Of a DNA stretch of 54,494 bases, positions 1,557 through 40,252 are shown in pieces. This DNA is from Bacteroidetes bacterium RIFCSPLOWO2_12_FULL_35_15 (GTDB lineage Bacteria > Bacteroidota > Bacteroidia > 2-12-FULL-35-15), in NCBI GenBank assembly GCA_001769385.1, contig MEPB01000074.1, positions 1 through 54,494 on the forward strand, read 5' to 3'. The position numbers and the translations under genes were made by a program. Under the pieces are notes generated by a model that worked only from the letters and a program-made list of their open reading frames with translations, did not search any database and was not told the origin of the DNA. The stretch's first letter is position 1, and the number at the start of each line of letters is the position of its first letter.

Positions 1557-2177
1557 ATGAATTTCTCCTCAAAATTAATTGAAGAAGCTGTAAATGAATT
1601 TAGTAAGTTACCTGGTGTAGGTAAACGTACTGCTTTACGTTTTGTTTTACATTTGATGAAAAATAACAAAGCCGAAGTGGAACAATTTGGCAATACGTTT
1701 ATAAAATTACGTTCCGAATTAAAGTACTGTGAAAAATGTCACAATGTCTCCGATAAAGTTTTATGTGAAGTTTGTGCAAATCCTAAGCGAGACCAAACTA
1801 CGGTTTGTGTTGTTGAAGATATACGGGATGTAATGGCAATTGAAAATACGCAACAATATTTAGGCGTTTATCACGTTTTAGGTGGAATAATTTCACCAAT
1901 GGACGGAGTAGGGCCAAGTGATTTAACTATTGAGTCTCTTGTGCAAAAGGCCGCTAAAGGAGAAATTAAAGAAGTGATAATGGCATTAAGTACTACAATG
2001 GAAGGAGATACTACCAATTTTTATATTTATAAAAGGTTAAAGGCTTACGCAATTACTGTAACGACTATTGCCCGAGGTATTGCTATTGGTGATGAATTAG
2101 AATATGCAGACGAAGTAACTTTAGGGCGTTCAATTATAAATCGTACTCTTTACGAAAATTCACTTTCCTTTAAATGA
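1557..2177 (+). CDS. recR: Recombination mediator protein RecR
   Basis: RecR helps load RecA in the RecFOR gap-repair pathway in the cytoplasm. The 206-aa protein has the full family layout: a helix-hairpin-helix with [12 protein letters not shown] (18-29), a four-cysteine zinc finger (Cys58, Cys61, Cys70, Cys73), then a Toprim domain starting at VCVVEDIRD and the conserved [13 protein letters not shown] segment. The length is normal (about 200 aa). Its stop overlaps the start of the following glycosyltransferase (ATGA), so the two are probably cotranscribed, although their functions are unrelated. Confidence 0.97.
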
Positions 2178-10068: not shown

Positions 10069-11214
10069 ATGCAAGGCAAGAAACTGACCATCGTCAACCG
10101 ACATTACCCACCAAATGTTAATATTACTGGTGAAAATGCCTGGGACCTTGCTAATTACTTAATTGAACAACATCAAATTGATGTCGCGATCGTTCATATA
10201 AGTCGTAGCTATGAAGGTGGCGGAAATAAACGAACACCAGTTGGCAAGATCTTTTCAATTAAAACAATTTACGAAGGCAACAATAAAATACTACGTTACC
10301 TGAGTAGTATTTTAGACGGCTATAATTTGATCCGCAAAGCAGAAAAATTAGATCATGGACCGATCATCGTAATGACAAGTCCTCCGTTATTGCCCATGTG
10401 GGCCTCCAAAATTTTAGGAAAAAAAAATAGCAAATGGATACTTTGGAGCATGGATCTGTTTCCGGAAGGTTTTGCAGCATCAAATGAGATAAGTGAAACA
10501 AATTTCTTATACAAATATGCAATAAAGCAAACCTACAAGAATGCTCCTGATAAAATTATTGCACTCGGACCACAACAAAAAAAAGTATTAGATAAAAAAT
10601 ACGATAAGGAGATTGAACATGTGATTTTGCCTTGTGGTGTATTTTTAGATCAGAATAAAGTTGAAACGATACCGCAATGGAAAATCCATTCTGATAAAAT
10701 ATATCTTGGATATCTTGGTAATTGTGGTAATGCCCATTCTGTCGATTTTATCAAAGCTGTTATTGATGAGGTGGATCCTGAAAAATATCACATGATACTT
10801 GCCGTTTATGGCATCAAAGCAGAGCAATTAAAAAACTATGCAAATGGTAAACGAGGAATCACCATCATGCAAAGCATTCCCCGAAACGAATTGCATCATA
10901 TTGATATTCATTTAGTAACCTTAGTAAATTCATGGACGCACATTGCAGTCCCTTCAAAAGCGGTAAGCAGCGTTTGTTCCGGGGCAACCATTTTATTTTG
11001 TGGAAATAAAGAAAGTGATAACTGGGTTTTATTGCACGATGCCGGTTGGTTAGTGGAGGACAATGAGAAACTTAAGTCAACTGTTCATAATGTATTGTCC
11101 TCGCTCACTTTGGATGACATAAAAACAAAAAAGAACAAGGCCCAACAAATTTCAAAGGACCTGAATACATTGGTGAAGCAAAGTTATGATACGATTGCTT
11201 CCTGGGCAAAATAA
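10069..11214 (+). CDS. Glycosyltransferase, GT4/WcaI-like
   Basis: 381-aa cytoplasmic GT-B type glycosyltransferase. The N-terminal acceptor half begins KLTIVNRHYPPNVNITGENAW, a pattern shared with WcaI-type colanic-acid transferases, and includes IIVMTSPPLLPMWASKIL. The C-terminal donor half has YLGYLGNCGNAHS and a late region around VPSKAVSSVCSGATILFCG, which corresponds to the nucleotide-sugar loop. It probably adds a sugar to a surface polysaccharide or LPS; the sugar is unknown. It lies between the TPR protein and an epimerase, with a nested inverted repeat after its stop. Confidence 0.8.
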   Translation: MQGKKLTIVNRHYPPNVNITGENAWDLANYLIEQHQIDVAIVHISRSYEGGGNKRTPVGKIFSIKTIYEGNNKILRYLSSILDGYNLIRKAEKLDHGPIIVMTSPPLLPMWASKILGKKNSKWILWSMDLFPEGFAASNEISETNFLYKYAIKQTYKNAPDKIIALGPQQKKVLDKKYDKEIEHVILPCGVFLDQNKVETIPQWKIHSDKIYLGYLGNCGNAHSVDFIKAVIDEVDPEKYHMILAVYGIKAEQLKNYANGKRGITIMQSIPRNELHHIDIHLVTLVNSWTHIAVPSKAVSSVCSGATILFCGNKESDNWVLLHDAGWLVEDNEKLKSTVHNVLSSLTLDDIKTKKNKAQQISKDLNTLVKQSYDTIASWAK

Positions 11215-21033: not shown

Positions 21034-21765
21034 TTATTTTTTACGGAAAAATATTCCGTTGCATTGCAGAACTACTCCTGTGTTGTTATCTGTAAAGGCA
21101 GGAACAATACTGTTGAGTTGAAATCCATTTTGTTCCATGTATTCTAAAACCTGCGGCAATAACCAATTTTGGTTTTCGTAAAGCGGAATCAAAGAGATCT
21201 CCATTTCAATTCCTTTGGCTTTGTTGATCATGTTTTGAGCACCTTTTAAAACTTCCTGTTCAAAACCCTGTACATCAATTTTTAAGAAAATATTTTTTGC
21301 ATTTTTACTATATTCAGCACCAATTTCATCCAAAGGGAATACCTGTACTTTTTCTTTTCCAATAATTTTCGAATCCGGAGCACCTTCGTAATGGGAGTCG
21401 AGCATATTCAGCAAGGTACTACTAACCGAGTTGGCTGAAATATTAATTTCTATTTCTTCCTTTTTGCTGCCGATGGCACAACGTGGAGCTACATCCCAAT
21501 TATTATATTTTTCACTTTCTTTTTTAATTTCGCTGTACGCGGAAGTCAAAGGCTCAAAGGATACAATTTTATTTTTATAGCCGGCATCAATGATTCCGGT
21601 TGCATATTGACCTTTGTTGGCACCGATATCAAACACCAGATCGATGTTATAATGCTCGAGAAGTTTTATCCTTCTTAGCTCCTCACTGGTCGCTGCATTA
21701 TATTTGCGAATAAGTATTCCGCAATTTTGAAAAAGTTTTTTGGTGATCCGTTCAAAGGTGTTCAT
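21034..21765 (-). CDS. FkbM family SAM-dependent methyltransferase
   Basis: 243 aa. The SAM-binding motif VFDIGANKGQYATGI (about 44-58) followed by IVSFEPLTSAY, and later IFLKIDVQGFEQEVLKGA, are the hallmarks of FkbM methyltransferases, which O-methylate sugars or polyketides. In this setting a methyl group on a surface-glycan sugar is the natural guess. It lies 19 nt downstream of another methyltransferase-like gene and 50 nt upstream of the oxidoreductase, all on the minus strand. Confidence 0.88.
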   Translation of the reverse strand: MNTFERITKKLFQNCGILIRKYNAATSEELRRIKLLEHYNIDLVFDIGANKGQYATGIIDAGYKNKIVSFEPLTSAYSEIKKESEKYNNWDVAPRCAIGSKKEEIEINISANSVSSTLLNMLDSHYEGAPDSKIIGKEKVQVFPLDEIGAEYSKNAKNIFLKIDVQGFEQEVLKGAQNMINKAKGIEMEISLIPLYENQNWLLPQVLEYMEQNGFQLNSIVPAFTDNNTGVVLQCNGIFFRKK

Positions 21766-22665: not shown

Positions 22666-23541
22666 ATGTCGGGCGAAAAAGCATATAAAGGTTTTGTATT
22701 ATTTATTACACAATGTGTAAATACATTCCTTTCTGTTTTGAAAATTATTGTTCAATCAAAGTTCGGATTGAAACTACCGAAGGCAGAAAGCAATAGATGT
22801 ATTGTTCTTGCAAATGGACCTTCGCTTAAAACATCGCTTGAAAAACATCCGGAATTATTTAAACAACATCCACTTATTTGCGTGAATACATTTGCTGTAA
22901 CAGCAGAGTTTGAGTCGCTAAAACCAAAATATTATGTGATGTTGGACCCATTTTTATGGGATATTAAAAATGAAACTAATTTAAGGACCTTTAAAAATTT
23001 AGAAGAAAAAACAACCTGGAAATTGCATTTACTTATTCCGAAACATGCAATGAATAATCCAATATTTCAGAAATTGAAAAAGAAAAACAGCAATATTGTT
23101 TTAACACCTTTTAATTATACCGTATTTAAAGGATTTTCAAATGTTGCGCATTGGTTTTATAATAAAAACCTGGCAATGCCGCAAAGTTTAAATGTTACAA
23201 TAACAGCTTTGTTTCTAGGAGTCAACTTGGGTTATAAAGAAATTTATTTGGTTGGTGCTGATCATACCTGGCATGAGAATTTGCATATGAGTGATGAAAA
23301 TATTCTTCATACCAAAGTGACTCACTTTTACGAAAATGATACAGAAATAAAATTAGTACCGTATTATATAAGTGGAATCCCCGGAAATGGAACCCGGAAG
23401 GCACATGAGTTTTTTGATATCTGGAGCAGGACATTTTATGCCTATCATCTCATTAATGATTACGCAGTAAAACATAATTGTACTATTTTAAATGCGAGTG
23501 AAGTGTCTTTTATAGATGCATTTAAGCGGATAAAACTGTAA
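22666..23541 (+). CDS. DUF115/MAF_flag10-like or GT42-like protein, candidate nonulosonate transferase
   Basis: 291 aa, cytoplasmic with an N-terminal hydrophobic stretch (about 8-32). CIVLANGPSLKTSLE (46-59) and LGYKEIYLVGADHTW (188-202) resemble the GNGPSLK and GYKEIYLSGID elements I recall from GT42 sialyltransferases such as CstII and from DUF115 (Maf) proteins that attach pseudaminic or legionaminic acid to flagellin. KYYVMLDPFLWD and RKAHEFFDIW are further shared-looking parts. It is followed by a CMP-nonulosonate synthetase gene, which fits a role in transferring that sugar. The resemblance is from memory and needs a profile or structure search. Confidence 0.6.
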   Translation: MSGEKAYKGFVLFITQCVNTFLSVLKIIVQSKFGLKLPKAESNRCIVLANGPSLKTSLEKHPELFKQHPLICVNTFAVTAEFESLKPKYYVMLDPFLWDIKNETNLRTFKNLEEKTTWKLHLLIPKHAMNNPIFQKLKKKNSNIVLTPFNYTVFKGFSNVAHWFYNKNLAMPQSLNVTITALFLGVNLGYKEIYLVGADHTWHENLHMSDENILHTKVTHFYENDTEIKLVPYYISGIPGNGTRKAHEFFDIWSRTFYAYHLINDYAVKHNCTILNASEVSFIDAFKRIKL

Positions 23542-23588
23542 TACTTGTGTAAATTAGGATGATTCATTTTCTAAATTTGCAAATAAAA

Positions 23589-23683
23589 TGTCATTCCGAC
23601 CAGAGTGGAGGAATCTTGCTTTTAATTATAAAGATTTCTCTGCGGAGTTTACACAGAGCAAAGTCGAAGTGGTCGAAATGACA
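23589..23683. repeat. Intergenic dyad repeat (GTCATTCCGACC type)
   Basis: A 95-bp element bounded by TGTCATTCCGACCA (23589-23602) and its complement with one mismatch (23670-23683). The interior has GGAGGAATCTTGC and AAGATTTCTCTGCGG, a second imperfect dyad. I recall similar GTCATTTCGACC...AGGAGAAATCT dispersed repeats in many Bacteroidota genomes. It lies between the DUF115-like gene and the cytidylyltransferase gene. Confidence 0.65.
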
Positions 23684-23728
23684 AAAGCACTTAGAATTAG
23701 TTAAACTATATTCTGTAAAATAAATAGA

Positions 23729-24442
23729 ATGAAAAAAATATTGATCACCATTTGTGCAAGAGGCGGCTCAAAAGGAATTCCGGGAAAGAACATTAAAATG
23801 ATGAATGGGAAACTATTGATCTCTTATACCATTGAAACAGCCTTAAAATTTTCGAATCTTCATAATGTTCAATTGGCACTTTCGACTGATTCCATTGATA
23901 TTAAAAATACTGCCGAAAAATTCGGATTGAAAACTGATTACATTCGTCCTGCAGATCTTGCTACCGATAGTGCAGGGAAACTTCCTGTAATTAAAGATGT
24001 TTTGCACTATCATGAAAAATTAAATAATACAATTTATGATTTTGTTATTGATCTGGATATTACTTCTCCCTTGCGGACAATTGATGATCTGCAATCAGCT
24101 TTAACTCTTTTAATTGACAGTAAAGAAGCGGTAAATTTATTTTCAGTAAGCAAAGCACACCGCAACCCCTATTTTAATATGGTAGAGGAGCAGCCGGACG
24201 GGTTTTATTATTTAGTAAAAAGTGGAAATTTTTTAACGCGACAGTCTTCACCAAAGGTTTATGACTTAAATGCATCATTTTATATTTTTAAACGACATTT
24301 CTTTGAAATGTATAATTCTGCAATGACTCCCAAAAGCATCATTTATGAAGTGCCTCATGTTTGTTTTGATCTGGATGAGCCTCTAGATTTTGAATTTTTA
24401 GAATTTTTATTGAAGAATAAAAAATTAAATTTTGAACTATGA
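23729..24442 (+). CDS. CMP-nonulosonate cytidylyltransferase (NeuA/LegF-like)
   Basis: 237 aa, normal for the family. ICARGGSKGIPGKNIKMMNGKLLISYTI (from residue 8) is the CTP-binding loop of acylneuraminate cytidylyltransferases; DFVIDLDITSPLRTIDDL gives the metal-binding aspartates. The enzyme activates a nonulosonic acid (sialic, legionaminic or similar) with CTP, the last step before transfer. The stop overlaps the start of the next gene by 4 nt, so translation is probably coupled. NeuA, LegF and PtmB cannot be told apart by eye; the surrounding leg-type genes favour the legionaminic branch. Confidence 0.9.
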   Translation: MKKILITICARGGSKGIPGKNIKMMNGKLLISYTIETALKFSNLHNVQLALSTDSIDIKNTAEKFGLKTDYIRPADLATDSAGKLPVIKDVLHYHEKLNNTIYDFVIDLDITSPLRTIDDLQSALTLLIDSKEAVNLFSVSKAHRNPYFNMVEEQPDGFYYLVKSGNFLTRQSSPKVYDLNASFYIFKRHFFEMYNSAMTPKSIIYEVPHVCFDLDEPLDFEFLEFLLKNKKLNFEL

Positions 24443-25347
24443 AGGTACTTATCATTGGATTAGGTTCAATTGCTAAAAAGCATATCAATGCAATCAAACA
24501 GATTGATCCAAGTGCAGAACTATATGCATTAAGGAGTACTTCAATTTCAGAGCAATATGAAAATGTGAAAAATGTTTTTTCCATTGATGAATGTCCTGAA
24601 ATTGATTTTGTAATTATTTCAAATCCAACTGCATTTCATGCAGATGCAATAAAAAAAGTTGCTTCACTTAAAAAACATTTGTTTATTGAAAAACCTCCCT
24701 TTCATACATTAGAGGATGTGGATGAGATCTTGAATTTAGTTTCTGAAAATCAACTAAAAACATACACTGCATTTAATTTACGCTTTCTGGATTGTTTGAA
24801 CTATGTAAAGAAAAACATACAAACAAGTAAAGTGCAGGAAGTGAATGTATATTGTGGTTCCTATTTACCTGAATGGAGAAGTAATACGGATTATAAAAAT
24901 AATTACAGTGCTAATTCTGACATGGGTGGTGGAGCTCATTTGGATCTGATCCATGAATTGGATTATGTTTTATGGATCTTTGGTCAACCATTGGAAGTAA
25001 GATCTATTTTGAGAAGTAAATCTAAAATTGATATTAAAGCAATTGATTATGCAAATTATGCACTTATTTACAATGATTTTGTGGTGAATATTATATTGAA
25101 TTATTATAGAAGAGATGCAAAAAGGACATGTGAAATAATCTTTGATGATGTAACCTGGAATGTGAACCTACTGAAAAATAATATTACAAATACTGAAAAC
25201 AATTCATTTGTATTTCAATCAAAACAAACTGGATTAGATACTTATAAAGATCAAATGGAGTATTTTTATAAAACTATTTCAAGGAATGAGATGCTTTCAA
25301 ATTCATTATCCGAATCAGTAAACACTTTAAAAATTGCTTTATCATGA
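24439..25347 (+). CDS. Gfo/Idh/MocA family oxidoreductase (PtmF-like position)
   Basis: 302 aa, NAD(P)-dependent. LIIGLGSIAKKHINAI at the start is the Rossmann motif, FIEKPPFHTLEDVDEIL carries the conserved EKP, and SDMGGGAHLDLIHELDYVLWIFG holds the conserved His region of the substrate site. It overlaps its neighbours on both sides by 4 nt, so the cytidylyltransferase, this gene and the SDR form one unit. Comparable oxidoreductase pairs lie in the Campylobacter ptm flagellin-glycosylation genes. The exact reaction is unknown. Confidence 0.85.
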   Translation: MKVLIIGLGSIAKKHINAIKQIDPSAELYALRSTSISEQYENVKNVFSIDECPEIDFVIISNPTAFHADAIKKVASLKKHLFIEKPPFHTLEDVDEILNLVSENQLKTYTAFNLRFLDCLNYVKKNIQTSKVQEVNVYCGSYLPEWRSNTDYKNNYSANSDMGGGAHLDLIHELDYVLWIFGQPLEVRSILRSKSKIDIKAIDYANYALIYNDFVVNIILNYYRRDAKRTCEIIFDDVTWNVNLLKNNITNTENNSFVFQSKQTGLDTYKDQMEYFYKTISRNEMLSNSLSESVNTLKIALS

Positions 25348-26084
25348 TAAATTTAAAAAACAAAATTATTGTTGTAGTCGGTGGCAATGGATTGCTCGGA
25401 AAAGAGTTTGTGAAACAGATCAGGGAAAATGAAGGCATCGCTATTAATGCGGATATTAACCTGGATTCGGATTTGGACAAACACATTTTTGAATGTGATA
25501 TTACAGATGAAAACTCGATTCGAAATCTGATTGAAAGTGTAGTAAATAAGTTTGGAAGAATTGATGGATGGATCAATACAGCTTACCCTAGAACAGCTGA
25601 TTGGGGAGATCGGATTGATAACATTGATTTTGATTCATTCAGAAAAAATGTAGATATGCATATGAATGGATATTTTATTGCCTCCAAATTGGCTATTGAT
25701 GCCATGTTACCAAATCAAAAAGGAAGCTTAATAAATATAGCATCCATTTATGGAGTTGTCGGACCGGATTTTACAATTTATGAAGGCACCAAGATGTCCA
25801 ATTCTGTTACTTACGCAGCTATTAAAGGTGGAATTGTAAATTTTACCCGATTTTTAGCATCCTATTATGGTGGCAATGGGATTCGAGTGAACACGGTTTC
25901 TCCCGGTGGAATTTTTGATAACCAACCAGAACCTTTTTTGTCAAATTACAATAAAAAAGTTCCATTAAAAAGGATGGGCACTCCGCAAGATATTGCTCCA
26001 GGAGTAGTTTATTTATTATCAGATGCAGCAAATTATGTTACAGGACAAAATTTAATCATTGATGGTGGTTGGACCTGTATTTAG
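25344..26084 (+). CDS. Short-chain dehydrogenase/reductase (PtmA-like position)
   Basis: 246 aa. The cofactor motif is VVGGNGLLGKEF (the usual TGxxxGxG replaced by GGNGLLG), then GRIDGWINTAYPR, the active site Ser in INIASIYG, and YAAIKGG with Tyr and Lys of the YxxxK pair. VRVNTVSPGG appears as IRVNTVSPGGIF, and the C-terminus YVTGQNLIIDGGWT is typical for classical SDRs. It overlaps the upstream gene by 4 nt. With the preceding oxidoreductase it probably supplies or modifies a precursor of the nonulosonic sugar. Confidence 0.88.
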   Translation: MINLKNKIIVVVGGNGLLGKEFVKQIRENEGIAINADINLDSDLDKHIFECDITDENSIRNLIESVVNKFGRIDGWINTAYPRTADWGDRIDNIDFDSFRKNVDMHMNGYFIASKLAIDAMLPNQKGSLINIASIYGVVGPDFTIYEGTKMSNSVTYAAIKGGIVNFTRFLASYYGGNGIRVNTVSPGGIFDNQPEPFLSNYNKKVPLKRMGTPQDIAPGVVYLLSDAANYVTGQNLIIDGGWTCI

Positions 26085-27375: not shown

Positions 27376-28428
27376 CTAGAAGTAAATATGTTTTACATCT
27401 TCCTGAGCTTTGTAAAAATCTTCTACACGTCCAATATCTAACCAATATCCAAGGATAGGATAAGAAATTAATTTCTTATTGTTTGCGATAACGGCTTCCA
27501 TAAAATGTGTTGCATCAAATACATCATTTTCCGGAATAAGATCGATCAGATCTTTCTTGAAAATATAAATTCCTGCATTCGAATAGTAAGTATAACGAGG
27601 TTTTTCGCTGAAAGAAGTTACTTCATTTTTTGAATTAATATCCATTACCGCATACGGAACATCAATATGATAAGGAATGGTAGCCACTTGCATATCTGCA
27701 CCCGATTCAATAAACTTTTTGTAGAAATCCTGAAAATCAATATTGGTAAGCAGATCAGAGTTCATCAGTAGAACTGAATCATAAATAAATTTGTTAATTA
27801 ACTTTACTGATCCAATGGTACCTAAAGGTTTTTCTTCTTTTACAATATTAACAGAAATGCCATCTGATTTATTTTCCTCAACTCCTGCAATTATCTGGTC
27901 GGCTAAATGTCCCACTGAAATATGAAAATTATTTACACCATAATTAGCAAGCCGTTCAATATTACGAATGATAATGGGCTTATCACCAATCTTCAACATG
28001 GATTTAGGAATGTTATCAGTCAATGGTTTTAGTCGTTTCCCTTTTCCTCCTGCCATTAAAACTGCATCAACAGGAATTATGGAACGAACTTTATCCAGAT
28101 CAATGATCCGCACAATTTTTTTATTCGTATCAATCACAGGAATAAAACGAATCCCTTCATTTTTGTAATTATTTACTTTTTCGAAATTGTTTTCAGATTC
28201 TACAAAACATTTACTGTTTTTGTTCATGAAATTGGTAACCGGCTCATCTATACTGTGACTGTTTAATAAACCTCTTCTGATATCACCATCAGTTAAAGAT
28301 CCCACCAATTGTTTATTTTCATTAATAATAAAAACAGCCATATTCGGAATTGCAATTTTATTAATCAATTGCAATGCTTCGCGAGCGGTACCTTTTTCGG
28401 AAAAAAAATATTTATTAAAATCAATCAT
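27376..28428 (-). CDS. CBS-domain sugar nucleotidyltransferase (PtmE-like)
   Basis: 350 aa. Residues 1-~115 are a CBS pair (NMAVFIINENKQLVGSLTDGD, then IRFIPVIDTNKKIVRIID); residues ~120-350 are a nucleotidyltransferase with VLMAGGKGKRLKPLTDNIPKSML, the phosphate-binding signature, VLLMNSDLLTNIDF and SNAGIYIFKKDLI. The architecture matches the PtmE enzyme of Campylobacter legionaminic-acid synthesis, which makes a GDP-linked hexosamine, and mannose-1-phosphate guanylyltransferases with CBS domains. The nearby leg-type genes support the first. It has its own divergent intergenic region before the kelch gene. Confidence 0.85.
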   Translation of the reverse strand: MIDFNKYFFSEKGTAREALQLINKIAIPNMAVFIINENKQLVGSLTDGDIRRGLLNSHSIDEPVTNFMNKNSKCFVESENNFEKVNNYKNEGIRFIPVIDTNKKIVRIIDLDKVRSIIPVDAVLMAGGKGKRLKPLTDNIPKSMLKIGDKPIIIRNIERLANYGVNNFHISVGHLADQIIAGVEENKSDGISVNIVKEEKPLGTIGSVKLINKFIYDSVLLMNSDLLTNIDFQDFYKKFIESGADMQVATIPYHIDVPYAVMDINSKNEVTSFSEKPRYTYYSNAGIYIFKKDLIDLIPENDVFDATHFMEAVIANNKKLISYPILGYWLDIGRVEDFYKAQEDVKHIYF

Positions 28429-29959: not shown

Positions 29960-32626
29960 TTACTTAACAATAAAGATGTTTCCTTTTTTGAAAACTTCTT
30001 CTCCTGAAATAAGAGTCGCTTTCAAGAAATAAACAAATACTGCAGCATCCAGCTTCTGGCCTTTATAAGTTCCATCCCAACATAAACTTTGGTCACTGGT
30101 TTCAAATACTTTTTCTCCCCAACGATCAAATATTACGAATGAAATAGCCTGAATACACTTGCCATACACACATTCAAAATTGTTTTCGGTGTCGTCATTA
30201 GGTGAAAAAGCTGTAGGAACAAATAATTCTCCACAGTTAATTTCTACAGTTACCCAATCAATAGAAGAGCATCCATTTGTATCTGTTACAGTTAAAGAAT
30301 ATATAGTTGTCTGTAGTGGGTTAGCTATTGTGTTTTGGCAAGTGGAACAATCTAATCCGGTTGATGGACTCCAAAGATAGTTGCCCCCACCATTGCCATT
30401 TAAAACAGCTGTGTTTCCAGCAGTAATTGTTTGATCTATTCCTGCATCTGCTGTTGGTGCTGGATTTACATTAATCATAATGGAAACCGGATTCCCCTGA
30501 CAAGATCCATTACTTGGTGTTACAATATAATTTGTAGTTGTTGAAGGAGTGATTGAAATCGTATCTGTTATCGCGTTGCTTCCTCCACTCCACTGATAGA
30601 AGTTTGCACCACTTGCTGTAAGTATAGTGTTTTGTCCTGAGCAAATAATTTGGTTACCGCTTATTGCAGCAACCGGAACAGAATTTACTTGAATGGTTAT
30701 GGAATCATTATTAATACATGAACCATTAGAAGCTTGTAAATAATAGGTTGTAGTTACAGCAGGGCTTAGGGTTATTGTTGAAGATGTTGCTGAACTTCCA
30801 CCACTCCATTGATATGTTGTTCCACCGGAAGCATTTAGAGTAACTGATTGTCCGTTGCAGATAGAAGTGGAAGTAGGAGAAATGGAAGCACTTGGCATTG
30901 GAGTAACATTTACTATAACAGTTATAGGATTTCCTTGACAAGTACCATTACTTGGTGTAAGGATATAATTTGTGGTTGTTGTCGGAGCAACAGAAATACT
31001 CGCAGTTGTTGCAGTACTTCCTCCGCTCCATTGATAGGAACTTGCACCATTAGCAGTTAGGGTTGAACTTTGTCCGGAACATATATTTTGGTTACCGCTT
31101 ATTGATGCCACCGGAACTGAATTTACCTGAATAGTTATGGAATCATTATCAATACATGAACCATTAGAAGCTTGTAAATAATAGGTTGTAGTTACTGTAG
31201 GGCTCAGGGTTATGGTTGAAGATGTTGCTGAACTTCCACCACTCCATTGATACGTTGTTCCACCGGAAGCAGTAAGTGTAACTGATTGACCAATGCATAT
31301 TGATGTGGAAGAAGGAGAAATGGAAGCGTTTATTGTATTATTTGGGTTTCGGTCTCCATCGACCTGATCAGGAAACCCCGAGCCCATTTGTTGATTTACA
31401 CCAAAAAAATTAGCTGCTGTTGATAAAACTGAAAGGCTTGTGGAATTAGGATTTGGGATATAATAAATAAAGTTGGAACTTTCTCCTTGGTTAACATATA
31501 TTTTCCCATCATATGCTAACTCTAAAGTTAAGGAATTTATTAAAGTCATACCTGTCATTAAGTTTGCTGATGTAACAGTATAATTACTACTTACAACTGG
31601 GCAATTATATACAACATTCGAATATCCACTTGCTCCCCCCTGTAATATATAAATTCTTGAACTATTGGGTGAAAATTCCATTGTTACAAATGGTCCTCCA
31701 GATTGATTTGTATACGAATATTCATTTGAAACAGCACCTATCGCATTATTATAATCAAATAAAATCAAATTTTTTGCCACACTTGCAGTAGTGAAATTTG
31801 CAATAGCTAATTTATCATTTGTGGGAGATATTTCTATTGCACCAATTACTCCAATAGAATTACCTGATATAGAAACAGTGTAAATGTCAGTCGGTAAAGA
31901 AATTCCCGAATTAGTAATTGAGCATTTTCGAAGTGTAATATTTCCACTAGTTTCCGGTCTTGTAACAAATAACCATCTCTGATTTGTTGAACAATCGAGT
32001 TGGGATACAGCCATGCCTTCTCCGCTTTTAGTTGCAGTTACAATATCAATAGGAGCACTAACAGTTTTACTAACAGCATCAATTGTTACGTACCTGATAT
32101 TATCATAATATAAACTTGTTGCTTGTGTTTTATAAATAAAATAATATTCGGATATTGAGCCAGGTTTTCTTATAAGTTCAGACTCAAGGACAGATGCCCC
32201 CCATCCAGTTGTTGGTATCTTTCCGAAAATTTCATCCGCAGATGTGCTAGAATTATATGCAGAAAAATAAACAGTATCAGGATTGATTGCAGGGAATCCA
32301 GCATTGTATGGGCCTAGTGCAGCAATGAATGCATAAAACAGCACTGTATTGCTTGATGTATCGACCGCTGTTTGAATTACATCTTGAGTTCCCACACTTT
32401 TAATAGATTGTATACTATTACCAATAATACGAGGAGTTGTAAAGAGGGTTCCAGAAAAATTCAATTCGTAAAATTTAAGATTACCTGTACCATAAGAATA
32501 AAATGTTCCACTTGCATTTTGTTGTGAACTACCTACTATCCATTTTGGAAGTTGTGCCTTCATAAGATTTGGCCCAATTAATAAAATATATAAAAAAACT
32601 GTTCTATTTAGAGTTTTATAATACAT
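29960..32626 (-). CDS. Large secreted adhesin-like protein with type B (gliding-motility) T9SS C-terminus
   Basis: 888 aa. A signal peptide (about 1-25, ending NLMKAQ) is followed by a ~400-residue part with propeller-like repeated strands. Residues ~433-725 are four Ig-like units in an A-B-A-B order that share YQWSGGS, each ending near C.G or SNG.C. A PKD-like unit (ADAGIDQTITAGNTAVL) follows, then the gliding-motility C-terminal domain (PTAFSPNDDTENN, FVIFDRWGEKVFE, WDGTYKGQ, GNIFIVK). The start codon overlaps the NeuC-like gene by 19 nt, so translation is coupled to the sugar operon. A role in adhesion is inferred. Confidence 0.88.
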   Translation of the reverse strand: MYYKTLNRTVFLYILLIGPNLMKAQLPKWIVGSSQQNASGTFYSYGTGNLKFYELNFSGTLFTTPRIIGNSIQSIKSVGTQDVIQTAVDTSSNTVLFYAFIAALGPYNAGFPAINPDTVYFSAYNSSTSADEIFGKIPTTGWGASVLESELIRKPGSISEYYFIYKTQATSLYYDNIRYVTIDAVSKTVSAPIDIVTATKSGEGMAVSQLDCSTNQRWLFVTRPETSGNITLRKCSITNSGISLPTDIYTVSISGNSIGVIGAIEISPTNDKLAIANFTTASVAKNLILFDYNNAIGAVSNEYSYTNQSGGPFVTMEFSPNSSRIYILQGGASGYSNVVYNCPVVSSNYTVTSANLMTGMTLINSLTLELAYDGKIYVNQGESSNFIYYIPNPNSTSLSVLSTAANFFGVNQQMGSGFPDQVDGDRNPNNTINASISPSSTSICIGQSVTLTASGGTTYQWSGGSSATSSTITLSPTVTTTYYLQASNGSCIDNDSITIQVNSVPVASISGNQNICSGQSSTLTANGASSYQWSGGSTATTASISVAPTTTTNYILTPSNGTCQGNPITVIVNVTPMPSASISPTSTSICNGQSVTLNASGGTTYQWSGGSSATSSTITLSPAVTTTYYLQASNGSCINNDSITIQVNSVPVAAISGNQIICSGQNTILTASGANFYQWSGGSNAITDTISITPSTTTNYIVTPSNGSCQGNPVSIMINVNPAPTADAGIDQTITAGNTAVLNGNGGGNYLWSPSTGLDCSTCQNTIANPLQTTIYSLTVTDTNGCSSIDWVTVEINCGELFVPTAFSPNDDTENNFECVYGKCIQAISFVIFDRWGEKVFETSDQSLCWDGTYKGQKLDAAVFVYFLKATLISGEEVFKKGNIFIVK
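30465..30890 (-). repeat. 438-bp-spaced internal duplication, copy 1
   Basis: Within the adhesin gene this two-domain stretch is a near-identical copy of 30903-31328. Anchors such as TGGTTACCGC lie at 30651 and 31089, offset 438 bp or exactly 146 codons. Most differences are single substitutions, so the duplication looks recent relative to the rest of the gene. Confidence 0.75.
30903..31328 (-). repeat. 438-bp-spaced internal duplication, copy 2
   Basis: Partner of 30465-30890, in the same orientation and frame. The A domain part (about 31089-31328) is the best conserved; the B domain part differs more. Such blocks favour unequal recombination and copy-number change of the Ig-like units. Confidence 0.75.
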
Positions 32627-33738
32627 TTTTTATTTTTTAGTATCTTGATAATCCTATCAGCTGTTTTTCCATCACCATAAATATTCTTATCCTCAAGAAT
32701 TGGAAGTGTTTCAATAAGTTTTATTGCTTCAATTATTTTATTTTTTTCAATCTCACAATGAATTACATTTTTGCTGGTTTCCCTACCTTGCTGACGGTTC
32801 CCAATGTCAATTACATATTTCCCAAATGAAGCCGCTTCTACAATTCCACTCGAAGAATTTCCTAATACAAAACTACAATAGTTCAAACAAGAAAAATATC
32901 CAATAGTTCCCAAAGACTCAACAGGATGAACATTTTTCTTCCCTTTTGCAAAGTTGAGTAAAGTTTTTCTAATAACGCTTCCCATTGTATCAGCGTTTGG
33001 CATAGTTATAATTATCTGTTTATCTAAAATATGCAAAACTTCGATTAATTCATTTACATACTGTTGATTCTTTTCATAAGCGATTGTTTCAGGATGAAAA
33101 GTAACTAGCACAGGAGAATTTAAATCAATATTGAATTTTTGTTGAAATTGCGCCTTTGTTAAAAGAGCTATTTCATTCAGATTATCCAGACCTAATACAC
33201 CAACCGGATAAATATTCTCAGAAGTGCCAATAATTTGAGAGATGCGTTTAGCAGAACTCTCGAGTGAGGTAAAATGCAATGTTGACATCAAAGATAACGA
33301 ATGCCTGAACACATTATCTATAGCCCCTAAAGTTGTGTCACCTCCATATAGATGGGCAACCGGAATATTAAAAGGAATTGCAGCAGAGACAGCAGAAAAC
33401 ATTTCATATCTATCTCCTAAGCAAAGTACCAAATCTAAATTTTCTTGTTCCATTTCCCAAAGCGATGAGAATCGAGTAATTGTTTTCCCCATTGATTCTG
33501 AAATACCTTTAGCGTTATCATATTCGGGTACTGTTTCCAATTTATACGCGACATCAAAACCGTCAGCATGTATAACATCAACAGTATTGCCATATTTAGG
33601 TGAAACGTGTGTTCCAAAGGCAATAATTTTTAATTTAAAAAAGGAATCTACCTTCATTTTTTTTAACAATGGAAGGTAGTTGCCATAATCAGCTCGCGAA
33701 CTCGTCAACACAGCAATTCTCACAGGATGTCCTCCCAA
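32608..33738 (-). CDS. UDP/GDP-GlcNAc-type 2-epimerase, hydrolysing (NeuC/LegG)
   Basis: 376 aa. IAVLTSSRADYGNYLPLLKK at the start, VLCLGDRYEMFSAVSAA, VAHLYGGDTTLGAIDN, VTFHPET, and LGNSSSGIVEAASFG with DIGNRQQGRE are the characteristic order of hydrolysing 2-epimerases. It releases a ManNAc-type sugar (or its 2,4-diacetamido-6-deoxy form) for NeuB. The ATG at 33738 overlaps neuB; a GTG five codons later (33723) is an alternative start. Its 3' end overlaps the adhesin gene by 19 nt. Confidence 0.92.
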   Translation of the reverse strand: MGGHPVRIAVLTSSRADYGNYLPLLKKMKVDSFFKLKIIAFGTHVSPKYGNTVDVIHADGFDVAYKLETVPEYDNAKGISESMGKTITRFSSLWEMEQENLDLVLCLGDRYEMFSAVSAAIPFNIPVAHLYGGDTTLGAIDNVFRHSLSLMSTLHFTSLESSAKRISQIIGTSENIYPVGVLGLDNLNEIALLTKAQFQQKFNIDLNSPVLVTFHPETIAYEKNQQYVNELIEVLHILDKQIIITMPNADTMGSVIRKTLLNFAKGKKNVHPVESLGTIGYFSCLNYCSFVLGNSSSGIVEAASFGKYVIDIGNRQQGRETSKNVIHCEIEKNKIIEAIKLIETLPILEDKNIYGDGKTADRIIKILKNKKCIIKL

Positions 33739-34736
33739 CTTAATTTATGATCCTCTTGTAGATCTGAATTCAATTTTTTACCAATTACATATTCAATTAA
33801 AACAGAAGTCATTCCATTACCAGGACGTTTCATTATTAGATCTCCCTCACCAATAATATGTCCTTTAGGCAAATCTTTAATTAAATGAATACTTTTTCTA
33901 GCAATTGCAATGTTTTTTGATTCAGATGGTGATGGTCTTTTAATTCCATCTCCTAAAGCTTTTTCAATATTTCGAATTGCCATTATCATTGCTCTGAGTT
34001 CTGTGGGTTCAAGTGATGCTTTGTGATCTGGTCCTTCCATCAATTTATCCAAGGTAAAGTGCTTTTCAATTATCGTTGCTCCTAATGCTACGGCAGCAAT
34101 CGGAATTTCAATTCCTAGGGTATGATCAGAATAACCCGTTTCAAGTTTAAAAGCATTGTGCATTGTTTTCATAGCAAGTAAATTCACGTCTTCCATTGGC
34201 GTTGGATATTCTGTATTACAATGCAACAATGAAATTTTGTTTCTCTGAGTTCCTGCATCAATTAATAAATTAATCGCTGTTTCTATTTCACCTAAAAAAC
34301 ACATTCCTGTTGAAAGGATAATTCGCTTATTTAGTTTTCCTAGTTTTTTTAGATAAGGAAAATTTGTTACCTCTCCAGATGGTATTTTTATGGTTTGTAA
34401 TCCAAGATCGTTCAGTATATCAATGCTTTCTAAATCAAAAGGCGTAGATAAAAATTCAATACCAGTTCTTTCACAGTGCTTAATCATTTCCTTATGTGCA
34501 TCTACATTTAAAAATAATTTTTTCACCATTTCTAGTTGCGATTCATTATTACCGGTATTCACTTTTTGATAGGATGCCTTTTCAGCAGTTTTACTTATAT
34601 TTAATTCTGGAATAAATGTTTGAAATTTTACTGCATCAGCACCTGCTATCTTTGCTTCCTCTATAAGTTTTTTTGCATTTTCTAAACTGCCGTTATGATT
34701 AACTCCAGCTTCAGCTATTATATAAACTTTTTTCAT
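33720..34736 (-). CDS. Nonulosonic acid synthase (NeuB/LegI)
   Basis: 338 aa. It condenses phosphoenolpyruvate with a six-carbon amino sugar. IAEAGVNHNGSLENAKKLI, ADAVKFQTF, FLSTPFD, IKIPSGEVTNFPYL, LSTGM, LLHCNTEYPTP, GYSDHT, and EKHFTLDK...GPDHKASLEP are the full family signature, followed by an antifreeze-like SAF domain (about 270-338). The NeuB and LegI branches cannot be separated with certainty by eye. The legB-legC context favours legionaminic acid or a related diamino sugar. The gene overlaps the 2-epimerase by 19 nt and follows the acetyltransferase after 12 nt. Confidence 0.93.
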   Translation of the reverse strand: MKKVYIIAEAGVNHNGSLENAKKLIEEAKIAGADAVKFQTFIPELNISKTAEKASYQKVNTGNNESQLEMVKKLFLNVDAHKEMIKHCERTGIEFLSTPFDLESIDILNDLGLQTIKIPSGEVTNFPYLKKLGKLNKRIILSTGMCFLGEIETAINLLIDAGTQRNKISLLHCNTEYPTPMEDVNLLAMKTMHNAFKLETGYSDHTLGIEIPIAAVALGATIIEKHFTLDKLMEGPDHKASLEPTELRAMIMAIRNIEKALGDGIKRPSPSESKNIAIARKSIHLIKDLPKGHIIGEGDLIMKRPGNGMTSVLIEYVIGKKLNSDLQEDHKLSWEDIL

Positions 34737-34748
34737 TGCAATATTTTT

Positions 34749-35402
34749 TTATTTATTTTCTTTTATCTCTTTAGCCGGCAAACCAACTGCTACTTTATTG
34801 TTTTCAATATTAGTGTTCAACATAGCTCCAGCTCCAATTAAATTATTGTTTCCTATTTTAATGTATTGTAAAATCGTTGAATTGGTACCTAATAAATTAT
34901 TGTTACCTATAACAACACCTCCTGAAATATTTACTCCGGGATTAATTACATTGCAATCTCCAATAGTAGAATCATGCCCCAATGTTGTATGCAAATTAAA
35001 TATATTTAATGATCCAATTAATATATCAAGAGTAAAAATACAACCCGCAGTAACAATATTTCCTTCACCCATTTTTATCGTTTCAAACAAGCCTATTACA
35101 CTGGGGTGAATGAGATTTGGGAATTCATATCGAGAAAGGTATTTGTCTTTAATTGAATTTAAAATCTTCGGATTCCCGATACCAATTGCTAAACATTTAT
35201 TTTCCGATGTTGAATTCTTAAAAAAAGTTTGCTCTTCAAACACTTCAAATTTATTTACACCAATATTTATTTCCTGAATTGTAGGTTTAATATCAATAAA
35301 GCCGCCTACTTTAAAAGTTGGCTTCTTTTTATTAATTTCATGAATTAAAAAATAAACTTCTTTCGCAAAGCCACCTGTTCCAAATATGTATATTGTCTTC
35401 AT
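34749..35402 (-). CDS. NeuD/LegH-like sugar O/N-acetyltransferase
   Basis: 217 aa. The N-terminal IYIFGTGGFAKEVYFLI is the nucleotide-sugar-binding beta-alpha unit of the NeuD/PglD family, and the C-terminal half is a left-handed beta helix with repeated hexapeptides (IVTAGCIFTLDI, IGDCNVINPGVNISGGVVIGNNN, IGNNNLIGAGAMLN). It would acetylate the 4-amino group made by the aminotransferase, using acetyl-CoA. It lies between neuB and legC with gaps of 12 and 9 nt. Confidence 0.87.
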   Translation of the reverse strand: MKTIYIFGTGGFAKEVYFLIHEINKKKPTFKVGGFIDIKPTIQEINIGVNKFEVFEEQTFFKNSTSENKCLAIGIGNPKILNSIKDKYLSRYEFPNLIHPSVIGLFETIKMGEGNIVTAGCIFTLDILIGSLNIFNLHTTLGHDSTIGDCNVINPGVNISGGVVIGNNNLLGTNSTILQYIKIGNNNLIGAGAMLNTNIENNKVAVGLPAKEIKENK

Positions 35403-35411
35403 ATTTTTAAC

Positions 35412-36557
35412 CTATTTTATCCGTACACTACTTGGAATATTTACCAATCTATCCTCAAGTATTTGTGAATTACTTAAATCCCCATGTATGGCATCTTTAA
35501 ACATTTCTAGCTTGTTCATTAACCTCCAAACTGGGCGTGTCATAATACCGTTATCATTACTATATTGTAAAAATTCATCACGTTGTTTTCTATCAGCTAA
35601 TAAAATTGCATTTAACCAATAATTCGATCTGGAATTGGATGGTTCTTCTACAAATTGTATTTCAGTTCCTTTGAAAAACGCTTTGTAGAGAGTTGCAAGT
35701 TCGCGTTTATTTTCTAAAAAATAATTCAAAATTTCTAATTGAGCAACTATCAATGCAGCATTGATATTCGGCATGCGGTAATTGTATCCAATTTCATCAT
35801 GGATAAATTCCCAGCGATGTGGTACTTTTGCCTGTGTGGTTAAATATTTTGCTTTCTTTGCAAGAGTTATATCATCTGTAACGATTGCTCCCCCACCACC
35901 GCAAGTGATGGTTTTGTTCCCATTAAAACTAAATGTTCCTAATAAACCAAATGTTCCTGTATGTTTCTCTTTATAAAAACTGCCAATGGATTCTGCTGCA
36001 TCTTCAATCAAAGAAATATTATATTCATTGCAAATTATTGCTAATTCATCGATCCGGCAAGAATGTCCAAAAGTATGCATAGGAATACAAGCAGCTATTT
36101 TTTGTCCTGTTGTTTTATGATAGGAGAAGCCATCTGCTTTTTTTATAACGTTTTCATGCAAGTAAATCTTTAATTTTGCAGGACTCAAACCCATGGTATC
36201 AATGTCAACATCTACAAATAAATGAGATGCTCCTATGTATGCAATTGCATTACAGGTGGCGATAAAACTTAAAGATTGTGTAATAACAATTTCATTTTGT
36301 TTAACTCCCGCAACAATCATTGCCATGTGCAAAGCTGCTGTCCCGTTTACACAAGCAACAGCATATTTAGCTCCTGTGTAGGCCGCGATCTGTTTTTCAA
36401 AATCGTCAACATATTTACCAACAGAAGAAACAAAGGTTGAATCAACACAATCGATCAGATATTTTTTTTCATTACCAATAAATCGAGGTTCATGTAATGG
36501 GATGGTATCCTTTGAAGGGAATTGTGCTTTAATAAAATCAACTGTTTGCTTAAACAT
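35412..36557 (-). CDS. LegC-family sugar aminotransferase (PLP)
   Basis: 381 aa, DegT/DnrJ/EryC1 fold. EPRFIGNEKKYLIDCVDSTFVSSVGKYVDDFE is the N-terminal LegC-like segment; IEDAAESIGSFYK supplies the PLP-ring aspartate, and FSFNGNKTITCGGGGAIV the Schiff-base lysine. It puts an amino group on C4 of the 4-keto-6-deoxy sugar nucleotide produced by the dehydratase. It overlaps the LegB gene by 8 nt. The length is as expected for the family (about 380 aa). Confidence 0.92.
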   Translation of the reverse strand: MFKQTVDFIKAQFPSKDTIPLHEPRFIGNEKKYLIDCVDSTFVSSVGKYVDDFEKQIAAYTGAKYAVACVNGTAALHMAMIVAGVKQNEIVITQSLSFIATCNAIAYIGASHLFVDVDIDTMGLSPAKLKIYLHENVIKKADGFSYHKTTGQKIAACIPMHTFGHSCRIDELAIICNEYNISLIEDAAESIGSFYKEKHTGTFGLLGTFSFNGNKTITCGGGGAIVTDDITLAKKAKYLTTQAKVPHRWEFIHDEIGYNYRMPNINAALIVAQLEILNYFLENKRELATLYKAFFKGTEIQFVEEPSNSRSNYWLNAILLADRKQRDEFLQYSNDNGIMTRPVWRLMNKLEMFKDAIHGDLSNSQILEDRLVNIPSSVRIK

Positions 36558-37536
36558 TATAAATATCGGTTTTGTAATTTTTTAAATTTTCAGGATTTCT
36601 AAACCACTCAATCGTTTGCTTCAAAGCATCAGTAAATATGTATTGCGCTTTCCAATTGGTAAGTGATCTGATCTTTTCGGAAGAACCTAATAATCGTTCT
36701 ACTTCGCTCTTTTCAGGACGTAATCGAATATCATCAGAAATGATTTTTGCTGATGGGTTTATCAAGTCAATTATTGTTTGTGCCAGATCTTGAATTGAAA
36801 TTTCCTTTTGTGTTGCAATGTTTATTTCTTCACCAATAGTTTTATCAGATTTTGCAATTTCTACAAAGGCATTCACTGTATCTTTTACGAATAGCAGATC
36901 ACGAGTTGGGTGAAGCGCTCCTAATTTTATCTCTGTTTTGCCTGCAAGTAATTGGGTAATAATAGTTGGTATTACCGCCCTTGCACTTTGTCGTGGGCCA
37001 AAGGTGTTAAACGGGCGAACAATGGTTACAGGTAAATTAAAACTTCTGTAAAAAGAATCGGCCATTGCATCAGCACCAATTTTACTTGCCGAGTAAGGAG
37101 ATTGTCCTTGTTTGGGATGTTTTTCATCAATAGGAACATACATTGCTGTACCATATACTTCGGAAGTCGAAGTTACTATAAGGCGTTTCACATCGTAATC
37201 GCGTGCAGCCTGTAAAATATTTAAGGTTCCTTTTATATTGGTATCCACATAACTATCAGGGGAATGGTAACTATACGGAATAGCTATAAGGGCCGCTAAA
37301 TGATAGATGATATCAACTCCTTTTACAGCGGTTCGAACTCCATTGGGATCACGTACATCGCCTGCAAAAATTTCTATCTTATTTAATTTTTCTTTTGGAA
37401 AGGAATCCAACCATCCCCAGGAGTTGAAGGAATTGTAGTATACAAAGGCTTTTACTTTTTGTCCTTCGTCAACTAACTTTTCTACCAGGTGACTTCCGAT
37501 AAATCCATCAGCACCGGTAACTAAAATTGTCTGCAT
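36550..37536 (-). CDS. NAD-dependent sugar-nucleotide 4,6-dehydratase (LegB)
   Basis: About 328 aa from the ATG at 37536; an ATG eight codons earlier is possible, but MQTILVTGADGFIGSHL begins exactly at the Rossmann fold. TGADGFIGSHLVE, STSEVYGTA, YSASKIGADAMA (Tyr and Lys of the active site) and RPFNTFGPRQSARAVIP show a GDP/UDP-sugar 4,6-dehydratase. It makes the 4-keto-6-deoxy intermediate, the first committed step of the legionaminic branch. There is a 73-nt gap to the upstream Gfo/Idh gene. Confidence 0.92.
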   Translation of the reverse strand: MQTILVTGADGFIGSHLVEKLVDEGQKVKAFVYYNSFNSWGWLDSFPKEKLNKIEIFAGDVRDPNGVRTAVKGVDIIYHLAALIAIPYSYHSPDSYVDTNIKGTLNILQAARDYDVKRLIVTSTSEVYGTAMYVPIDEKHPKQGQSPYSASKIGADAMADSFYRSFNLPVTIVRPFNTFGPRQSARAVIPTIITQLLAGKTEIKLGALHPTRDLLFVKDTVNAFVEIAKSDKTIGEEINIATQKEISIQDLAQTIIDLINPSAKIISDDIRLRPEKSEVERLLGSSEKIRSLTNWKAQYIFTDALKQTIEWFRNPENLKNYKTDIYNV

Positions 37537-37609
37537 ATATTCAATTTTTTGAATACACAAAGCTACTAATTTTAATGTATTAAAAGACGGAAGAAAATTA
37601 TGTTATTGA

Positions 37610-39586: not shown

Positions 39587-40252
39587 TTACAATAATTTCA
39601 TTATCTCATCGGCATAAAATTTATTCCCTTCCTTATTAAGATGTGAATCTATAGGGTGAAGATAGACTTCATAACCTTTTGTATTCATCAACAAATTAAA
39701 GATATCCAATTCTATACAATTCGAATAATTTTTAATGATGCCGGATAAAATAGTATTCAAATTTCTAATTGCCTGATTTGCTCCAGGTGTTTCTTTTTCT
39801 TGCAAAAGATTAACAGGAGCAATGTTAATCCATATTAATTTTGCTTTATTATTATCGCATACAGATTCAACTGCTTTTGCAAACTCTTGTTCCGTTGTCC
39901 AGGGTTTGTTGCGAACGTATTTGATAAAAAAACTTCGCTTTATCCGAATCATTCTGCGAAGAAATTTTGCAAAAAAAGATTGAGAGATAGTAAGTCGTTG
40001 ACTCAAAGGACGAGGATAAGCATCTACTATACCAGCTTGTATCACATAAATATCAGCCCCTTTGTATTTTTCAAAAATTGCAGGCAAATCTGTGACCTTT
40101 CTAAAAGAAGCGAAATCAATTTCAATATCATGATCAAGTTTAATTAACTCTGTCTTACAAAGTTCCGGAAAGGTTTGTTGTATCGCAACCTCTTCTATTT
40201 GTTTATGAATCCTTGGACCTCCATAACTGTCGGTAATAAAAGTGATCTTCAT
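39587..40252 (-). CDS. SGNH/GDSL-fold hydrolase-like protein
   Basis: 221 aa without a signal peptide. ITFITDSYGGPR near the start corresponds to the GDS block with the nucleophile Ser, and HPIDSHLNKEGNKFYADEI at the end supplies the Asp and His, in the spacing DxH seen in AlgJ/PatB-like sugar O-acetyl enzymes. WINIAPVNLLQ is a further strand of the fold. In a glycan locus it is likely to add or remove acetyl or similar ester groups. The gene is divergent from the flippase gene. Confidence 0.7.
   Translation of the reverse strand: MKITFITDSYGGPRIHKQIEEVAIQQTFPELCKTELIKLDHDIEIDFASFRKVTDLPAIFEKYKGADIYVIQAGIVDAYPRPLSQRLTISQSFFAKFLRRMIRIKRSFFIKYVRNKPWTTEQEFAKAVESVCDNNKAKLIWINIAPVNLLQEKETPGANQAIRNLNTILSGIIKNYSNCIELDIFNLLMNTKGYEVYLHPIDSHLNKEGNKFYADEIMKLL

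Follow-up and report, generated by a model that had tools for sequence, protein, structure and literature searches.

The window analyzed here, that is, the whole stretch of 54,494 nucleotides of contig MEPB01000074.1 from Bacteroidetes bacterium RIFCSPLOWO2_12_FULL_35_15, contains on its forward strand an open reading frame for a protein of 291 amino acids with an ATG start. The same start position was found in many relatives from the genus, and a few genus relatives with longer reading frames were trimmed to it. The first-pass annotation had reported this reading frame with two motifs, ANGPSLK and GYKEIYLVGADHTW, and a CMP-sugar synthetase gene next downstream. The coordinates, the start codon and the residue positions (the second motif being residues 189-202) bore this out, and the downstream gene was confirmed as a PF02348 cytidylyltransferase. 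The gene, its motifs and this neighbor are as follows:

22666-23541, + strand: stand-alone PF01973 (MptE-like/DUF115) protein of 291 aa, predicted CMP-nonulosonate glycosyltransferase (PF01973 and a Maf-like model)
22810-22830, + strand: encodes ANGPSLK (residues 49-55), a predicted loop for the CMP donor (profile alignments with the GNGPSLK loop of CstI/CstII; conservation)
23230-23274, + strand: encodes residues 189-203, GYKEIYLVGADHTWH, whose initial part aligns with GYKEIYLSGID of CstII
23323-23331, + strand: codons for H220-F221-Y222, H220 being invariant in 79/79 sequences and a candidate general base
23729-24442, + strand: CMP-sugar synthetase, PseF/LegF-like (PF02348, 60.6 bits, cut-off 22.6; PseF model 107.3 bits, under the equivalog cut-off of 205.7)

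Between the two genes, at positions 23560-23700, lies an element that can form a hairpin (RNA fold z-score -2.97). In the nearest relative (L031), 21 bp separate the transferase and CMP-synthetase genes in place of this element. The 27-base core of the hairpin had no second copy in the window (up to 3 mismatches) and no copy in 166 loci (3 free positions) save L001, which corresponds to the window itself.

Other genes of the window were assigned by their model matches:

21034-21765, - strand: FkbM-family methyltransferase (PF05050), a recurrent divergent neighbor whose cluster is present in 18/30 genus loci of the family
24439-25347, + strand: Gfo/Idh/MocA oxidoreductase (PF01408), presumably PtmF-like by its position
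25344-26084, + strand: SDR oxidoreductase, PtmA-like (NF006619, 269 bits, cut-off 255; PtmA model 182.5 bits, under the cut-off of 350)
27376-28428, - strand: sugar-1-phosphate nucleotidyltransferase with CBS domain (PF00483, PF00571), which we take to be PtmE-like
32608-33738, - strand: NeuC/LegG-type UDP-GlcNAc 2-epimerase (TIGR03568, 392 bits, cut-off 235.9)
33720-34736, - strand: NeuB/LegI-type nonulosonate synthase (TIGR03569, 485 bits, cut-off 399.65)
34749-35402, - strand: NeuD/LegH-like acetyltransferase (TIGR03570, 152.2 bits, slightly under the cut-off of 160.8)
35412-36557, - strand: LegC aminotransferase (TIGR04181, 538.4 bits, cut-off 420)
36550-37560, - strand: LegB 4,6-dehydratase (TIGR04180, 515.6 bits, cut-off 475)
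40405-41886, + strand: Wzx-like polysaccharide flippase (PF01943)

As judged from these matches, the window genes encode a legionaminic-type pathway, the exact sugar being a prediction. LegB, LegC, NeuC and NeuB all scored above their cut-offs, which places nonulosonic acid synthesis in the protein's own genome. Window proteins were scanned with Pfam in sets of 8, 10 and 4 (two of the last being also in the set of 10), and the only other glycosyltransferase-family match among them was a GT2 protein (2174-4129). The earlier claim that no other obvious sialyltransferase exists in the window agrees with this result, but is weakened by a protein of 381 aa in the sugar region (10069-11214) that had no Pfam match and may be an unrecognized glycosyltransferase. 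A close relative of this last protein was clustered in L032 and L035. Additionally, a small protein inside the sugar cluster (39587-40252) gave a weak, sub-cut-off GDSL-type match and is possibly an acyl-modifying enzyme.

The 291-aa protein scored 51 bits against PF01973 (MptE-like, formerly DUF115), whose gathering cut-off in Pfam is 34.6. Against the NCBIfam PseD/Maf model NF050051 it reached 37.6 bits for a cut-off of 670, with residues 37-279 aligned to model positions 222-445 of 640. Conservation was analyzed by aligning the window protein with 78 relatives. Eleven positions (G51, P52, N74, W118, N150, G197, H200, H220, F221, N276, and D284) were invariant in 79/79 sequences, and N50 (77/79), S53 (77/79) and D199 (78/79) nearly so. 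On account of this conservation the two motifs, as sequence features, are not due to chance. PF01973 matched 78 of the 79 members at E ≤0.1, and the GT42 model PF06002 matched none of them at E 0.1. Weak side matches at the same threshold were obtained with models for WaaZ (TIGR04437; 12 members, best E 5.6e-4), PseD (8), TrbG (4) and a 16S rRNA methyltransferase (3); since the unrelated TrbG and rRNA methyltransferase models match too, only the PseD match (1e-9) carries weight.

An AlphaFold2 model built from the 79-row alignment (pLDDT 94.4, pTM 0.92) was compared with the PDB. Foldseek returned five rows at E ≤0.001, with Maf (5mu5) at the top (E 9.8e-8), followed by the pterin kinase (HPPK) of M. 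jannaschii (8sd5) in two rows, the best at E 2.4e-4 and above any sialyltransferase, and by human ST8SiaIII in two rows (E 7e-4); CstI and CstII were not among the 50 rows listed. In VIA-align, Maf 5mu5 was again first (Z 13.2, rmsd 3.8, 198 residues), and the CstII/CstI entries came next (Z 11.0-9.6, 175-197 residues), so that both the fold of the Maf central domain and the GT42 fold were recognized. Interleaved with the GT42 rows was the cell-division protein SteA (Z 10.3 and 9.5). The overall fold of 8sd5 was recognized as well (Z 9.8 over 169 residues, and 9.5), and further rows corresponded to a P. multocida sialyltransferase (Z 9.8), thiamine pyrophosphokinase (Z 8.9) and GT29 enzymes, some of them solved with CMP ligands (Z 8.2-8.7). 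Because rows less than 1 Z apart count as ties, only Maf stands clear in this comparison. The likeness of the Maf central domain to Cst-II has already been published (PMC11339370). In a viral-protein fold search, phage and giant-virus proteins, several of them annotated as MptE-like/DUF115, gave 18 rows at E ≤0.001; 38 stretches of viral contigs fitted the pattern, and none was confirmed as a relative of the family.

The family profile, searched against the PDB, found CstI (E 8.1e-4) and CstII (about 0.02), and 8sd5 was absent from its matches; aligned with CstII alone, it covered residues 43-201 with 96% probability. A PDB search with the single 291-aa sequence retrieved proteasome chains only (E 0.45). 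The structural comparison with CstII and Maf proposed in the first-pass annotation was thus mostly favorable, Maf heading both aligners and CstII/CstI following in VIA-align. The assignment to a GT42/Maf type held for the fold, but by profile the protein is neither a full Maf nor a GT42 enzyme; it is a stand-alone variant of the catalytic core. The likeness to Maf/PseD comprises the closest fold, the shared Pfam family and the tie to nonulosonic acids, whereas the window protein is a 291-aa core that lacks the other domains of Maf and resides in a glycan locus, in a genus in which no flagellin was found. With CstI/CstII it shares the fold, the GNGPSLK loop and the GYKEIYL.GxD segment, and it differs from them by the missing PF06002 match, Arg129 and His188 being unmapped on it.

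Pairings with the CstII active site were read by eye from the profile alignments. The GNGPS loop of CstII aligned with N50, G51, P52, and S53, Asn31 with N74, Asn51 with D94 (an Asp in 69/79 sequences), and GID with G197-D199. In CstII, His188 has been described as the base/catalytic residue, and Arg129 and Asn51 as acceptor-binding residues (PMC4202792). Arg129 was paired with S174 in one profile alignment and with T152 in the other, neither of them an Arg column, and both alignments end before His188. The only histidines invariant in 79/79 sequences were H200 and H220; because His188 of CstII lies outside both alignments, naming either of them as the catalytic base is a guess. A catalytic mode like that of CstII and Maf is likely.

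The first-pass annotation is to be corrected in one further point: the protein is a member of a family that is widespread in Bacteroidota. A homolog at E ≤1e-10 was present in 31 of the 36 genomes of the genus. At the genus loci (n = 30), the FkbM methyltransferase and a GT2 gene were found upstream and divergent in 18 each, and a hexapeptide acyltransferase downstream in 21. Flippase-like genes belonged to two clusters, one related to the window Wzx (11/30) and one flippase-like by eye only (16/30). By gene content, 15/30 loci carried a pseudaminic cassette and 9/30 a legionaminic one, and 6/30 had no clear label in the stretch examined. For the pseudaminic type a single locus, L042, was checked: PseB, PseC, PseG and PseI scored above their cut-offs and the cytidylyltransferase-like protein had no model match at E 1e-30.

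A wider search with a profile of the 31 genus members yielded 78 distinct loci from named records among the best 80 of 145 confirmed matches; 27 of the 78 were the genus loci again. The 78 loci were mostly from Bacteroidota (Pedobacter, Solitalea, Emticicia, Fibrella, Arcicella, and Sporocytophaga); the other taxa among the matches listed were Melioribacter and Ignavibacteria, with single loci labeled Methylotenera, Gammaproteobacteria and Omnitrophica, and since many of the 78 loci are metagenome bins, these single odd taxa may be misbinned. Within about 10 kb, among these best 80 of 145, NeuB-like genes were found at 45 loci, CMP-synthetase-like genes at 52 and either of them at 55 of the 78, and any biosynthesis gene at 59 when weak LegB/LegC look-alikes were counted. 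With a looser filter on the same set, the nearest nonulosonate gene was at ≤300 bp in 26 loci, at ≤1.5 kb in 23 more, at ≤5 kb in 9 and farther in 1; in 19 loci there was none, which on short contigs can be due to truncation. Outside the genus, 34 of the 51 loci from the best 80 had a NeuB-like or CMP-synthetase-like match under this looser filter. A second, distant PF01973 protein with 23-26% identity to the window protein was detected in two genus genomes, G030 and G033 (L061, 9333-10211; L064, 2562-3431). The same two stretches hold a cluster 21 gene, found too near divergent members in L058-L060.

The occurrence of the family was then compared with that of NeuB. The class Bacteroidia was sampled with 395 genomes, and the family gene (E 1e-15) was detected in 35 of them, from 15 genera. 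NeuB was present in 262 of the 395 at E 1e-3 and in 212 below 1e-40 (hand count), and all 35 genomes with the family gene were among these 212. The hypergeometric probability was 8e-11 for 35/35 and 1.2e-6 for the 20/20 genomes outside the genus, both values ignoring relatedness, which inflates the co-occurrence, as 15 of the 35 genomes belong to one genus. Among the NeuB places listed, the two genes lay on one contig within 15 kb in 13 of the 20 non-genus genomes. Moreover, 24 of the 78 loci were picked for having few or no nonulosonate genes nearby (including all 19 with none) and their genomes were searched: NeuB was found at E ≤3e-86 in 24/24, of which 16 are new, the other 8 having been counted elsewhere (identical E-values and places). 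Within the genus, NeuB matches were obtained in 35/36 genomes, including all 31 with the family gene, although in one of these (G011) the match was only a fragment (E 4.5e-24). The family tracks nonulosonic acid synthesis.

Five genus genomes lacked the family gene. One of them (G001) is 76% complete and has no NeuB, two are split into 590 (G003) and 1290 contigs (G021), and in a good one (G015) the contig seems to break off within PseB, close to the expected place of the family gene. The fifth, G017, is listed as 100% complete, carries a PseI-type synthase and gave no match to PF01973; it was the only one of the 36 genus genomes with a GT52 (PF07922) gene, which lies two genes after PseI in a polysaccharide locus of different appearance (L062, 4625-5593). 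GT52 includes bacterial sialyltransferases (PMC4202792); the case stands alone, but it fits the need to replace a missing transferase. The sialyltransferase families searched in the genomes were GT52, GT80 and GT42. GT80 (PF11477) was found in 0/36 genus genomes, and GT42 (PF06002) in 0/395 genomes over the cut-off, with one weak match containing stops; the control genomes were silent for both models too, so that these zeros do not establish absence.

Taken together, the fold, the family profile, the gene linkage and the co-occurrence with NeuB support the reading as a nonulosonate transferase, the activity being predicted. We consider it highly probable that this protein of 291 aa acts as a CMP-nonulosonate glycosyltransferase, a stand-alone core of Maf/GT42 fold, which would move a legionaminic-type acid onto a lipid-linked surface glycan, with activity, donor and acceptor all predicted. 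This estimate is based on the sequence profile, the linkage and the co-occurrence, and it is not altered by the Foldseek rank of the pterin kinase, the ties in VIA-align or the genomes counted more than once.

Among the other explanations, the one that survives best is a nonulosonate transferase that modifies Ser/Thr of a non-flagellin protein directly, in the manner of Maf. Maf is the closest fold in both Foldseek and VIA-align and glycosylates flagellin directly at Ser/Thr (PMC11339370), but the 291 aa accommodate only the central Maf-like domain, corresponding to less than the complete 640-position PseD, and GT2, FkbM methyltransferase and flippase-like genes adjoin the relatives, a setting that would suit the assembly of a lipid-linked glycan. 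Flagellin_N was detected in 0/36 genus genomes, the protein's own included, and in 4/14 control genomes; the earlier suggestion of an acceptor outside flagella was thereby strengthened, and direct protein modification appears unlikely.

A glycosyltransferase of the same fold with another donor, such as CMP-Kdo in WaaZ, whose linkage to the cassettes would reflect a shared glycan locus only, is less probable still. The Kdo-III transferase model of WaaZ does match 12/79 members weakly, as given above, and in some genomes the nonulosonate genes lie elsewhere; however, unrelated models match at equal looseness, and NeuB was present in every checked genome with a family gene. Kdo synthesis, common to nearly all Gram-negatives, would not explain this pattern. 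WaaZ uses a CMP-ulosonate donor, and its sugar and locus differ from those of the window protein. The genome of G017, without the family gene, carries a GT52 gene near PseI instead, which also argues against another donor.

A 6-hydroxymethylpterin diphosphokinase of the MptE type, suggested by the Pfam name of PF01973 and by the overall fold of 8sd5 (second in Foldseek), is hardly credible, since an ordinary HPPK (PF01288) is encoded in 32/36 genus genomes and in all 26 good ones, among them the genome of the window, the family profile matches CstI/CstII in the PDB and not 8sd5, and such a kinase would leave the linkage to nonulosonate genes unexplained. Clear pterin kinase homology, which the first-pass annotation had named as grounds for abandoning its proposal, was thus contradicted by the profile, the HPPK genes and the nonulosonate ties, the fold alone being indecisive. 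As the main reading, the pterin kinase was rejected in view of the ordinary HPPK and the gene context.

For the preferred reading, transfer of a nonulosonic acid to a surface glycan, the following course is proposed. The surrounding genes would make a legionaminic-type acid, which the transferase would use in its CMP form. The transfer would be cytoplasmic, with a sugar of a lipid-linked surface glycan as the acceptor, either a Bacteroidota O-glycan or an LPS/capsule unit, and the glycan would then be exported by the Wzx-type flippase of the cluster. The mechanism is presumed to be inverting, with invariant H220 or H200 as the base. The protein may attach to the membrane through its basic N-terminal helix: the first 40 residues have a net charge of +5, and a hydrophobic moment of 0.50 was calculated for the top-scoring 18-residue segment of the helix. 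Because another stretch of the protein reaches 0.60, this is only suggestive.

Our best guess for the acceptor, from the 0/36 result for flagellin, the lack of room for the other Maf domains, the GT2, methyltransferase and flippase-like genes of the loci and the likeness to Tannerella, is a lipid-linked O-glycan, LPS or capsule being possible. In the O-glycan loci of Tannerella, Wzx has been described as followed by pse or leg genes, and these by transferases (PMC6120980). GtfS and TFUB4_00887 of Tannerella forsythia have the same proposed job, in an O-glycan locus with pse and leg cassettes that alternate between strains (PMC6120980, PMC6388019); they differ, by their description, in their length (445 and 442 aa) and in carrying motifs of other bacterial sialyltransferases (PMC6388019). 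A further parallel is CA_C2196 of Clostridium acetobutylicum, whose DUF115 domain is listed as a glycosyltransferase in a non-flagellar polysaccharide neighborhood, but which is a two-domain protein made up of a methyltransferase and MAF_flag10/DUF115; that study makes no mention of a sialic, legionaminic or pseudaminic donor (PMC4000134). Among the open-licence papers listed, none treated stand-alone PF01973 proteins in the role of nonulosonate transferases.

To relate the transferase to its cassette, a quick tree was built from 82 proteins; a cassette label could be assigned clearly to 48 (32 Pse, 16 Leg), and 34 were unlabeled. The labels required at least 9 changes by parsimony, and at least 6 were forced by starred (well-supported) branches, stars that in a quick tree deserve lesser trust. 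Shuffled labels required about 13.6 changes, and 2-3 of 500 shuffles were as low as observed. As far as this sequence tree can tell, the cassette label is clustered, yet it has switched repeatedly. The clearest switch was found between L048 (Pse) and L055 (Leg), with flanks 64-86% identical, transferases 67% identical and a different cassette between them. The nearby cassette need not supply the donor, as some genomes have two NeuB genes.

In pairs from the genus, the identity of the transferase lagged behind that of the neighbor genes by 17.9 points when the cassettes were of the same type (n = 108) and by 23.7 points when they differed (n = 84), the pairs not being independent. The larger lag hints at retuning to the donor. 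When the pairs were matched in bands of neighbor identity, the means for same and different cassettes were 54.0 (44 pairs) vs 52.4 (26 pairs) in one band and 55.7 (19) vs 54.4 (31) in another; the top band contained 9 same-type pairs (71.7) and 1 different (50.5). These matched means are close and favor neither donor tolerance nor retuning. Maf enzymes have been described as donor-promiscuous (PMC11339370), and the two Tannerella transferases as showing no cross-complementation (PMC6388019).

The broader proposal, which we hold with equal measures of belief and doubt, is that a widespread family of minimal Maf-type transferases, bearing no name in the literature searched, caps surface glycans with nonulosonic acids in non-flagellated bacteria, and that a lasting transferase beside swapped Pse/Leg cassettes points to an enzyme that is donor-tolerant or easily retuned. 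Characterization is largely lacking for the glycosyltransferases encoded in Bacteroidota O-glycan loci (PMC12871550), and according to a 2019 review the Tannerella enzymes were the first nonulosonate transferases with experimental evidence (PMC6388019). If the proposal is true, a named and structurally interpretable family would fill the transfer step in many genomes in which Pfam says pterin kinase-like, and the Maf core would work outside flagella. The family would also offer a compact, possibly donor-tolerant enzyme for the synthesis of legionaminic and pseudaminic glycosides, and the exchange of pse and leg genes beside one enzyme would make its donor tolerance directly testable.
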